From Aeromicrobium yanjiei (GTDB lineage: Bacteria; Actinomycetota; Actinomycetes; Propionibacteriales; Nocardioidaceae), in contig NZ_CP045737.1 of assembly GCF_009649075.1 (NCBI RefSeq), positions 3,162,001 through 3,226,000 of the forward strand: DNA of 64,000 nucleotides, read 5' to 3'. This document shows, piece after piece, positions 52,767-64,000 of the stretch (positions are counted from its first letter, which is position 1; each line of letters begins with the position of its first letter). The notes beneath the pieces are model-generated. The model saw only the letters and a list, made by a program, of their open reading frames with translations, searched no databases and was not told the DNA's origin. The translations under genes and the position numbers were made by a program.

Positions 52767-52885
52767 AGGACCATTGTCTCTCGTCGCACAATCTCCCGGA
52801 CAGGCGGCTTCTCAGGGCGTGACCCCCGGCGCGCCGGCTCGTTGAACCGGTGACTGCAGGGCTGTACGGCCGTCGGAGGCTGCTG

Positions 52886-52934
52886 TAACATCGGTTTACG
52901 CAAAGGCGCGTGGGTGGCGCCGGTCTGGGGAGGG
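52886..52934 (+). promoter_or_regulatory. Predicted -10 and ribosome site of the lytic transglycosylase gene
   Basis: TAACAT at 52886-52891 is a plausible -10 (preceded by TGCTG, extended type), and GGGGAGGG at 52927-52934 is a strong ribosome site 7 bases before the ATG. No clear -35. The rest of the 175-base gap back to hemL shows no riboswitch or operator I can recognise. Confidence 0.4.
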
Positions 52935-52941
52935 CACGATC

Positions 52942-54186
52942 ATGGGAGCTCGCACGCTGACGCGCTGGCAGAAGGCCGGCGCTCTCGCACCGATGGTGAT
53001 CCTGGTGGGAGCGTGGGGCGCAGCCCTCGGCAACTCGGGCCTGGCGACCGCCTCGGGCGGCTCGTCCGACGACGACGTGCCCGCGGTGCCCGCGACCGCA
53101 TTCGAGCAGCCCGCCAGCGTGCAGCAGACCCCCCAGGGCGTCGACCGCAAGGCGGGCACCGCCGGCACCGTCGCGACCCTGTCGACCAACGGCATCCCCG
53201 CCTCGGCGCTCTCGGCCTATCGCCGCGCCGAGACCCTCCTCGGCCGGGCCGACGACGAGTGCAAGCTGCCCTGGAACCTCGTCGCGGCGATCGGCCGCGT
53301 CGAGTCCAACCACGGCCGCACCAACGGCAATGCGCTCAGCTCCGACGGCCTCGCCGAGCCCGGCATCTACGGCGTGCCGCTCGACGGCAAGGACGGCCGG
53401 GCCCGCATCCTCGACAGCGACAGCGGCTCCCTCGACAAGAACTCGGTGTACGACCGGGCGGTCGGCCCCATGCAGTTCATCCCCGGCACCTGGAAGTCCG
53501 TGGGCGTCGACTCGGACAACGACGGCACCAAGAACCCCCAGGACATCGACGACGCAGCCACCTCGGCCGGCGTGTACCTGTGCTCCGGCGAGGGCGATCT
53601 GTCCAAGCGGGCCGACGCCGCCTCGGCGGTCAAGCGCTACAACCACTCGGACTCGTACGTCGAGCTGGTCCTGAAGATCTCGGCGGCGTACGCGGGCGGT
53701 GACTTCACCAAGTCGCCCGACGGGCTCTCGACCGCTCCCATCCTGACCTCGACGGCCTCCGACCAGACGCTGAGCGCCTCCGAGCGCAAGGCCGCGGTCA
53801 AGGCCGAGCAGAAGGCGGCCAAGAAGCCCAAGCCCCAGAAGGACCGCGGCGGGGCCGGCGGCGGCGGCTCGACCGGGGGCGGAACAGGCACCGGCACGGG
53901 TGGCGGGACCGGCACCGCGCCCGGCACCGGCGGCGGGACCGGCACCGGCGGTTCGGACGGCGGCAGTGGCGGCGGTGGCACCCCCAGCGGCGGCACGGTC
54001 GGCGGCGGCGTCCAGGACCTGGTCGAGGGCACCCCGCTGGCGCCCCTGGCCCCGGTCACCAAGCCCGTCACGGGCCTGCTGACCGCGGTCGAGGCCAACC
54101 TGCAGTGCCTCGCGACCGTCGCGACGCTGCCGGTCAGCACCTACCGAGCCCGGTTCGCAGCCTGCATGGCCGCCTTCGGCTACTGA
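52942..54186 (+). CDS. Secreted lytic transglycosylase (SLT-like) with Gly-rich tail
   Basis: A 414-residue exported protein. Signal or anchor helix about residues 12-32; catalytic Glu is E121 in GRVESNHGR, followed by [16 protein letters not shown], the usual transglycosylase fold text with a DxDNDG calcium-binding-like loop ([11 protein letters not shown]). After about residue 270 come a Lys/Ala-rich linker and a 55-residue Gly/Thr-rich low-complexity stretch, then a conserved tail with two cysteines. It cleaves peptidoglycan during growth. The 3' end overlaps hemB by 7 bases in convergent orientation. Confidence 0.9.
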
Positions 54187-62655: not shown

Positions 62656-63354
62656 GTGGAGCACGTCGGAGCGCTGCGCATCGCGCTGTCGCTCGCCCTG
62701 AGGCTGCGGGACGACCGGTCGCTCCAGGTCGCCCTTGCCGTGGCGGACTCACCCGCGTACGCCGCGTCCGGCGGCCAAGGGCCGGCCCCTCACGACGACG
62801 ACCCCGAGGCCGCCCGGCTGCGGGCGCTGGTCGACCTGGCCAAGGAGGGCGACGCCGAGGCCTTCGGCCAGCTCTACGACCACTACGTCACGGGGATCTT
62901 CCGGTTCATCTACTACCGGGTCGGCTCGCGACAGCTCGCCGAGGACCTCACGAGCGAGACCTTCGTCCGGGGGCTCCGGGCGATCCAGCGCTTCAGCTGG
63001 CAGGGCAAGGACTTCGGCGCCTGGCTGACCACGATCGCCCGCAACCTCGTCGCGGACCACTTCAAGTCGAGCAGGTCGCGCCTCGAGATCGTGACCGAGA
63101 CGATCCCCGAGGGTCTGACCCCGGCCTCGGGACCCGAGCACGAGGTGCTCGCGCACGTCACCAACGAGATCCTGTTCGCGGCCGTCAGGGCCCTGCCCGA
63201 CGAGCAGCGCGACTGCATCCTGATGCGCTTCATCCAGGGACTGTCGATCGCCCAGACCGCTGCGGCCATCGGCCGCAGCGAGGGAGCGATCAAGCAGCTG
63301 CAGCTCCGGGCGATCCGCAATCTCGCCAGGTCCGTCCCGGCGGAGGTCCGATGA
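62656..63354 (+). CDS. bldN: ECF sigma factor, BldN-like
   Basis: A 232-residue sigma-70 family protein. Region 2 spans about 66-135 (FGQLYDHYVTGIFRFIYYRV, DLTSETFVRGL, WLTTIARN) and region 4 about 172-225 (LPDEQRDCILMRFIQGLS, IGRSEGAIKQLQLRA). A 55-65 residue N-terminal extension precedes region 2; Streptomyces BldN also has one, which is removed by proteolysis. GTG at 62656 with AGGGAGG (62644-62650) and a -10 TACACT at 62627-62632. The order rex - glutaredoxin - HAD - sigma - DUF5667 is like that around bldN in Streptomyces coelicolor as I recall it. Identity as BldN is an inference from context and the promoter at 63393-63421. Confidence 0.75.
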   Translation: MEHVGALRIALSLALRLRDDRSLQVALAVADSPAYAASGGQGPAPHDDDPEAARLRALVDLAKEGDAEAFGQLYDHYVTGIFRFIYYRVGSRQLAEDLTSETFVRGLRAIQRFSWQGKDFGAWLTTIARNLVADHFKSSRSRLEIVTETIPEGLTPASGPEHEVLAHVTNEILFAAVRALPDEQRDCILMRFIQGLSIAQTAAAIGRSEGAIKQLQLRAIRNLARSVPAEVR

Positions 63355-63392: not shown

Positions 63393-63421
63393 CGTAACCC
63401 CGGCACGCCCGGTGTCGTTGA
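63393..63421 (+). promoter_or_regulatory. Candidate BldN-type sigma promoter
   Basis: CGTAAC at 63393-63398 and CGTTGA at 63416-63421, 17 bases apart, match the -35/-10 consensus reported for Streptomyces sigma BldN (CGTAAC, about 16 bases, CGTTGA) exactly in both hexamers. The predicted start is about 30 bases before the ATG of the DUF5667 gene. Confidence 0.6.
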
Positions 63422-63457
63422 TCGTGCTGATCCCACCTCGACAGGCAGGAACCCCTC

Positions 63458-64000
63458 ATGATCGGCCGTCGCTCCCACGACGACGCCCAGTCCTTCGACG
63501 AGGCCTGGGGCGGCGCCGACCCGCGGGACGAGGAGATCGCCGCTCTCGTCGCCTTCGCCGAGGCCCTGTGCGCGGCGGCCCCGGTCGAGCCCACGGCGCA
63601 GTTCCGGTCCACGCTCCGCGCGCAGCTGATGACCGAGGCGACCACGGTCCTCGAGCCCATGCCGGGGGCCGCCCGCCCGGCCGCCACGCCCGCCCGGCCC
63701 CGCAGCACGCGGCGTCGCCTCGCGGGCCTGACCGCGGCCCTCGTCACGTCGGCCGGCGCAGTCGGCCTCGTCGCGTCCAGCGCGTCGGCGCTGCCCGGCG
63801 AGATGCTCTACCCGGTCAAGCGCACGGTCGAGTCCGTCGAGCTCACCGCGTTGCACCACGGCGACGAGTCCCGCGGCTCCTTCCAGCTCGGACAGGCCGA
63901 GGAGCGCCTCACCGAGGCTCGCCTGCTGAGCGACAAGGGCGCCTCCGACACCCTCGTGGCCGACGCCCTCGACGACTTCTCCTCCGCAGCGTCCGACGGC
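63458..64000 (+). CDS. DUF5667 membrane protein, putative anti-sigma factor (partial, 3' end outside window)
   Basis: The first 181 codons are visible. An acidic N-terminal segment (about 1-60, EEIAALVAFAEALCAAAP) may bind the sigma factor; residues 88-107 form one membrane helix; then comes ALPGEMLYPVKRTVESVELTAL, the DUF5667 signature, outside the cell. This topology matches RsbN, the anti-sigma factor of BldN in Streptomyces. GGCAGGA lies about 8 bases before the ATG. It immediately follows the sigma gene (103-base gap). Confidence 0.75.
   Translation, partial: MIGRRSHDDAQSFDEAWGGADPRDEEIAALVAFAEALCAAAPVEPTAQFRSTLRAQLMTEATTVLEPMPGAARPAATPARPRSTRRRLAGLTAALVTSAGAVGLVASSASALPGEMLYPVKRTVESVELTALHHGDESRGSFQLGQAEERLTEARLLSDKGASDTLVADALDDFSSAASDG

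Follow-up and report, generated by a model that had tools for sequence, protein, structure and literature searches.

The locus examined here, in which the gene for a putative membrane anti-sigma factor lies behind that of an ECF sigma factor in Aeromicrobium yanjiei, raises the question of which polymerase transcribes the second gene. We analysed a 64,000-base stretch of contig NZ_CP045737.1 (positions 3,162,001 to 3,226,000; hereafter the window). Between the stop codon of the sigma gene (63352-63354) and the anti-sigma ATG at 63458 are 103 bases, and this gap holds the sequence CGTAAC-N17-CGTTGA at 63393-63421, with 36 bases between the end of the -10 box and the ATG. An earlier note on this DNA had reported both hexamers as exact, with a 17-base spacer, before the ATG, and all of this can be read directly from the letters. 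The promoter is very probably read by polymerase carrying the adjacent BldN-like sigma factor, which would thereby make its own brake.

Table 1. Features of the sigma/anti-sigma locus and of candidate targets (window coordinates, except for the small RNA)
Feature	Position	Strand	Evidence or remark
BldN-like ECF sigma factor gene (232 aa, GTG start)	62656..63354	+	Pfam Sigma70_r2/r4; TIGR02952; 6dxo_A
-35 box CGTAAC, anti-sigma gene promoter	63393..63398	+	CGTAAC in 79/92, CATAAC in 13/92 orthologous sites
-10 box CGTTGA	63416..63421	+	CGTT core in 92/92 orthologous sites
Probable transcription start (G), inferred	63429	+	purine 8 nt past -10 box in 89/89 N17 sites
RsbN-like anti-sigma gene (358 aa), product probably in the membrane	63458..64000, ends 534 bases beyond window	+	DUF5667; 6dxo_D
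Second BldN-type promoter-like site, CGTGAC-N16-CGTTGA (one mismatch)	52818..52845	+	precedes lytic transglycosylase gene
Lytic transglycosylase-like gene (414 aa), probable target	52942..54186	+	Pfam SLT_2, E 1.7e-11
Small RNA, sole copy in studied genome	C2:3432224-3432322	minus	behind CGTGAC-N16-CGTTGT

The sigma protein matches TIGR02952, the NCBIfam BldN equivalog and the top of 83 families, over positions 1-169 of 170, with a score of 177.4 bits that lies under the cut-off of 206.45. Its top solved structure is 6dxo_A (E 1.5e-51; runner-up 1.2e-14), with identities at 91 of 149 aligned residues, 58/84 and 33/65 in the two aligned parts, which correspond to regions 2 and 4. The PDB listing names the 6dxo chains 'RNA polymerase ECF-subfamily sigma factor' and 'BldN'; we take the entry to be the S. 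venezuelae BldN-RsbN complex and chain 6dxo_A to be BldN. About 57 residues stand before the stretch aligned to 6dxo_A, and in Streptomyces an N-terminal extension of BldN is removed on maturation. Because the TIGR02952 score falls under the cut-off, 'BldN-like' appears a safer label than 'BldN': the sigma assignment made earlier holds as far as the closest solved relative is concerned, but not to the level of the equivalog.

The full anti-sigma protein carries a DUF5667 domain from residue 111 (E 1.3e-15) and, by eye, a hydrophobic stretch near residues 88-112, a probable membrane span between an RsbN-like N-terminal domain and the DUF5667 domain. Searched singly against the PDB, its sequence gave chance-level matches only; a profile of the N-terminal part, made from 30 sequences out of 83 ORFs, matched 6dxo_D with an E-value of 3.8e-5 (next 0.11), in support of the anti-sigma assignment proposed from the sequence at the outset. 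The PDB listing labels this chain 'BldN'; it is presumably RsbN. Of 87 loci searched, 83 have behind the sigma gene an ORF with a DUF5667-type motif; five of the 92 sigma loci considered below were skipped.

The exact motif occurs once in the window and in none of 100 dinucleotide shuffles. The whole genome (3,682,026 bases, two contigs) likewise contains a single exact CGTAAC-N16/N17-CGTTGA and no copy of the reversed pattern, where the base composition of the window predicts 0.28 copies for the genome and some 3e-6 for the gap of 103 bases. One-mismatch N16 sites number six, versus three for the reversed control, and because they barely exceed this control, single-genome counts prove little; the genome count was rejected as too weak to serve as the main test of the motif. 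The earlier note had proposed a check against chance frequency and a genome search for the regulon. The first came out divided, with the exact copy unique and the one-mismatch sites near control, and the second, yielding one exact copy, was informative solely when done comparatively. Since counts within one genome prove so little, the weight of the case rests on conservation.

We compared 92 sigma loci, 80 from one search for relatives and 12 more from a search of the genus, the locus studied here included; a further 18 of the 30 loci of the genus search were excluded, their contigs being already represented. Within 220 bases past the sigma match, the best site has 0, 1, 2 and 3 mismatches in 31, 42, 18 and 1 of these loci, against 3-5 in same-length upstream stretches and 2-5 in shuffled sequence; the loci are related, some near-identical, and the counts are non-independent trials. 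The spacer is N17 in 89 loci and N16 in three, so that of the two lengths allowed in the earlier note it is 17, not 16, that applies here. Spacer letters drift while both boxes are kept, the exceptions being a T before CGTT (at 63415 in A. yanjiei, and in 87 of the 89 N17 sites) and a pyrimidine after the -35 box (88/89). The two boxes thus look like a genuine, evolutionarily conserved promoter. Because a purine is conserved eight bases past the -10 box throughout the N17 sites, with a pyrimidine directly before it in 78 of 89, we suggest that it marks the start site, which would place +1 at 63429, one base on from the 63428 named previously.

These comparisons bear on the possibility that the boxes are a chance match and that the anti-sigma gene shares the transcript of the sigma gene, begun at a promoter further upstream. 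The two genes do run in the same direction with merely the short gap between them, and one-mismatch sites in this genome are close to the control level; however, a chance match would have to account for two boxes kept around a drifting spacer in 92 loci, for a conserved initiator and for a motif that tracks sigma-gene presence across genomes, and we regard this reading as very improbable. Co-transcription with the sigma gene may well occur in addition to transcription from the promoter of the anti-sigma gene itself.

Among 49 genomes of the genus, the exact motif occurs 74 times, versus five for the reversed pattern. Of these genomes, 37 give a strong match to the sigma gene and 12 show none, and the exact motif is present in 33 of the 37 and in one of the 12 (Fisher p 5e-7, relatedness ignored; the genomes are related, and co-occurrence tests overstate their independence). 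The exact motif is absent from four sigma-bearing genomes (G002, G031, G039 and G041). The draft genome G027 (220 contigs) shows no sigma gene, yet holds exact motifs, the transglycosylase gene, the small RNA and an Mce site with two mismatches, the last three of which are described below. The adjacent HAD gene was searched in seven sigma-less genomes, and in the six loci inspected (L198-L203) its neighbourhood contains no sigma or anti-sigma ORF; an MMPL-like ORF follows the HAD gene in all six, and a TetR-like ORF lies between the two in the printed list for five, both labels being assigned by eye.

Sites of the same type also precede genes of the cell envelope. The second site in the window ends 96 bases upstream of the lytic transglycosylase-like gene. 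At 24 readable loci of 30 for this gene, our own included, the best site shows 0, 1 and 3 mismatches in 10, 13 and 1, and in 23 of the 24 a site with at most one mismatch lies 65-107 bases before the start; controls gave 4-5 mismatches in within-gene stretches and 2-5 in shuffled sequence. Six of the 30 transglycosylase loci, and one of 30 for the Mce operon, were omitted because their start pattern was unrecognised. The transglycosylase gene is present in 37/37 sigma-bearing genomes of the genus and in 2/12 sigma-less ones (G027 and G033). Between the BldN-type site and the transglycosylase start, at 52885-52900, we also found GTAACATCGGTTTACG, which recurs in the upstream regions of L168-L191, with its first 15 letters exact in 16 of the 24 readable loci; it is perhaps the operator of another regulator.

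Outside the window, CGTAAC-N16-CGTTGC stands before the gene of an ATPase, behind which come two permease-like genes and four Mce-like ones; the best match of the ATPase is MlaF, under the cut-off, and the permease-like and Mce-like labels were given by eye. At 29 readable loci of the ATPase gene, the site has 0, 1 and 2 mismatches in 4, 6 and 17, and 4 and 5 in the remaining two, whereas two of 29 shuffled sequences reached two mismatches; at one locus (L269), an N15 placement ties with a CGTAAC-N16-CGTTAG site. In two more genomes with the sigma gene, the site has one and two mismatches. In seven of seven sigma-less genomes inspected, the best placement before this gene has 3-4 mismatches; one row of this check (G022) was a partial match to another copy and had no site. 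For the Mce site, the sigma-less genomes act as a natural control, to which G027, with its two mismatches, is an exception. A TGTG...TCACA palindrome, which resembles a CRP-type site, recurs just past the Mce -10 box (L254-L283) and overlaps the presumed start region.

The Mce data also bear on whether the promoter, though genuine, serves a different ECF sigma factor with overlapping specificity instead of the adjacent one. Searched with the sigma protein, the genome gives ten matches at E 0.001 or better, one being the protein itself, which means that further ECF factors are present, and cross-recognition is conceivable from sequence; we give this alternative very little credence, since in the 12 sigma-less genomes other sigma matches persist and yet the exact motif survives in one, and the Mce gene is without its site in all seven of those inspected.

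Eight exact sites precede not a convincing gene but hairpins with CUCCCUCC loops. A covariance model (R1), built from seven such elements with the promoter left out, found 43 copies in 34 of 41 genomes of the genus. The motif precedes all 43, with 11 exact and 14 and 18 at one and two mismatches (seven copies being the seeds, and the count standing without a shuffled control), and ends 3-4 bases before the start of the model. Seven genomes of the genus lack a match to R1: in six no sigma gene is seen and one (G039) is 58% complete. Some genomes carry two copies (L239, L241-L243, L246, L249 and L250 versus L208-L232), seemingly of two sequence types, and the studied genome has the second type only.

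The small RNA, which is unannotated, comprises three helices, with CUCCCUCC in two of the loops. Covariation was assessed on 42 of 50 copies (43 from the genus and seven from other genera), in an alignment fitted to the structure; among 40 distinct sequences, 96.5% of pair cells are paired, and both sides have changed in 227 cells, versus a shuffle mean of 52.5 (none of 500 reached 227) and no more than 49 on sliding the structure. In a family-wide draw, R1 matched 9 of 41 genomes, seven from other genera, with the motif at 0-1 mismatch in 7/7 copies. Across the class, a second covariance model matched 9 of 148 genomes, all within the same family, under strict filters that distant copies may escape; the motif precedes five of its six new copies and is absent at L308 (genome G175). 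A purine stands at base 8 past the -10 box in 26 of 26 small-RNA promoters tabulated (four of 30 were left out), which adds little, as the neighbouring bases are equally conserved.

No Rfam family reached its cut-off for the copies searched (11 loci, plus L238, L211 and L309 singly). The top match of the three copies tested singly is the alphaproteobacterial ar14 RNA (RF02344), at 22.5, 24.2 and 30.5 bits (E 0.017, 0.0066 and 0.00028; cut-off 58.8), with weak matches also in L116 and L136, every score being under the cut-off; Aeromicrobium belongs to an unrelated bacterial class, and the resemblance is likely one of design. The small RNA shares with 6C RNA (RF01066), or mycobacterial 6C/B11, an actinobacterial origin and C-rich loops, as these are described in PMC6582537. 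We rejected identity with 6C: RF01066 scored 18.1 bits on L211 against a gathering score of 47, was unlisted for L238, L309 and 11 further loci, and gave three matches elsewhere that are also under the cut-off; the three helices with CUCCCUCC in two loops set the new RNA apart as well. In M. marinum, B11 is preceded by a -10 of the housekeeping type (PMC12395582), unlike the Aeromicrobium small RNA. For a small RNA controlled by a single alternative sigma factor there is a parallel, by description alone, in SfdS/F6 of Mycobacterium tuberculosis, where the sigma factor is SigF (PMC8557902). The CUCCCUCC loops are complementary to GGGAGGG-type ribosome-binding sites. Ranking 51 start regions by loop-duplex energy gave no discrimination (transglycosylase 11, Mce 5, anti-sigma gene 49); among 50 window ORFs, selected by a rough G+C rule, the transglycosylase alone has GGGAGGG before its start.

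Taken as a circuit, RNA polymerase with the BldN-like sigma factor would read the promoter just downstream of the sigma gene, with active sigma starting the anti-sigma transcript near 63429. The product, with its RsbN-like domain, probable membrane span and DUF5667 domain, would then hold the sigma factor at the membrane and stop its activity, forming a homeostatic negative-feedback loop from which an envelope-sensed signal could release sigma. The same sigma probably drives the lytic transglycosylase gene, the Mce transport operon and the structured small RNA, whose loops could occlude ribosome-binding sites. The motif, its conservation, the kinship of the partners, the further conserved sites and the covariation of the small RNA are what the DNA itself offers; what we infer beyond this is transcription and its dependence on sigma, the binding and the release at the membrane, and the way in which the small RNA acts and on which targets.

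The circuit resembles BldN-RsbN of Streptomyces venezuelae and S. coelicolor in pairing an ECF sigma factor with an adjoining gene for an anti-sigma factor, probably membrane-bound here too, in its hexamers and in the match of both proteins to 6dxo chains. In S. venezuelae, rsbN is transcribed from a promoter of its own that depends on BldN (PMC4255298), and PMC8103513 describes RsbN as barring region 4 of BldN from the -35 box and tethering BldN at the membrane. With this precedent, the conserved motif and the two structural matches, the negative feedback suggested in the earlier note is supported as a reading. The systems differ in the spacer, N17 at the Aeromicrobium site versus N16 in the motif printed as CGTAACN16CGTTGA (PMC2375139), in the sub-cut-off equivalog score and in their targets: the candidates here are the transglycosylase, the Mce operon and the small RNA, whereas those named for Streptomyces in PMC4125116 are bldM, chaplins and rodlins. 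Negative feedback on BldN by way of rsbN is already published for Streptomyces, and Aeromicrobium is a further case in a simpler genus.

Aeromicrobium is a simple non-sporing rod, and despite this morphology it keeps the sigma factor, the anti-sigma factor and the promoter that joins them. A 2013 review places convincing BldN orthologues in morphologically complex genera only, and counts Nocardioides as mycelial and sporulating (PMC4255298). Circuits like the local sigma/anti-sigma pair are known; what looks new is the wider regulon, and the small RNA most of all. Our literature search found neither the envelope targets nor the small RNA reported; for Streptomyces, a small RNA that depends on BldN may be in print. 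Same-type sites before cell-wall genes and the small RNA hint that the role of the switch is wider, perhaps older. We would put at about even the chance that the whole of a broader picture is right: a BldN-RsbN switch that controls envelope remodelling, through the transglycosylase and Mce, together with a new sigma-dependent small-RNA family with anti-Shine-Dalgarno loops that reaches other Nocardioidaceae, the sigma factor activating some genes and repressing others through the RNA, and an envelope switch older than the role in aerial growth of Streptomyces. The further conserved sites form a short, testable list of targets for such a switch outside spore-forming hyphae, and the small RNA is a possible repressive arm of the sigma factor.

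Genes downstream of the exact motif were inspected for 49 of the 74 sites in the genus, with labels given by eye. Secreted S15/X-Pro-peptidase-like genes follow it at L118, L126, L129, L138, L140 and L152, and at such genes of relatives a GTAACT..AGTTAC-like inverted repeat overlaps the -35 box. Other relatives have behind it a surface-protein-like gene (L122, L123, L157 and L164), S8-peptidase-like genes (L134 and L142) or a glycosyltransferase-like gene (L141, L158 and L160).
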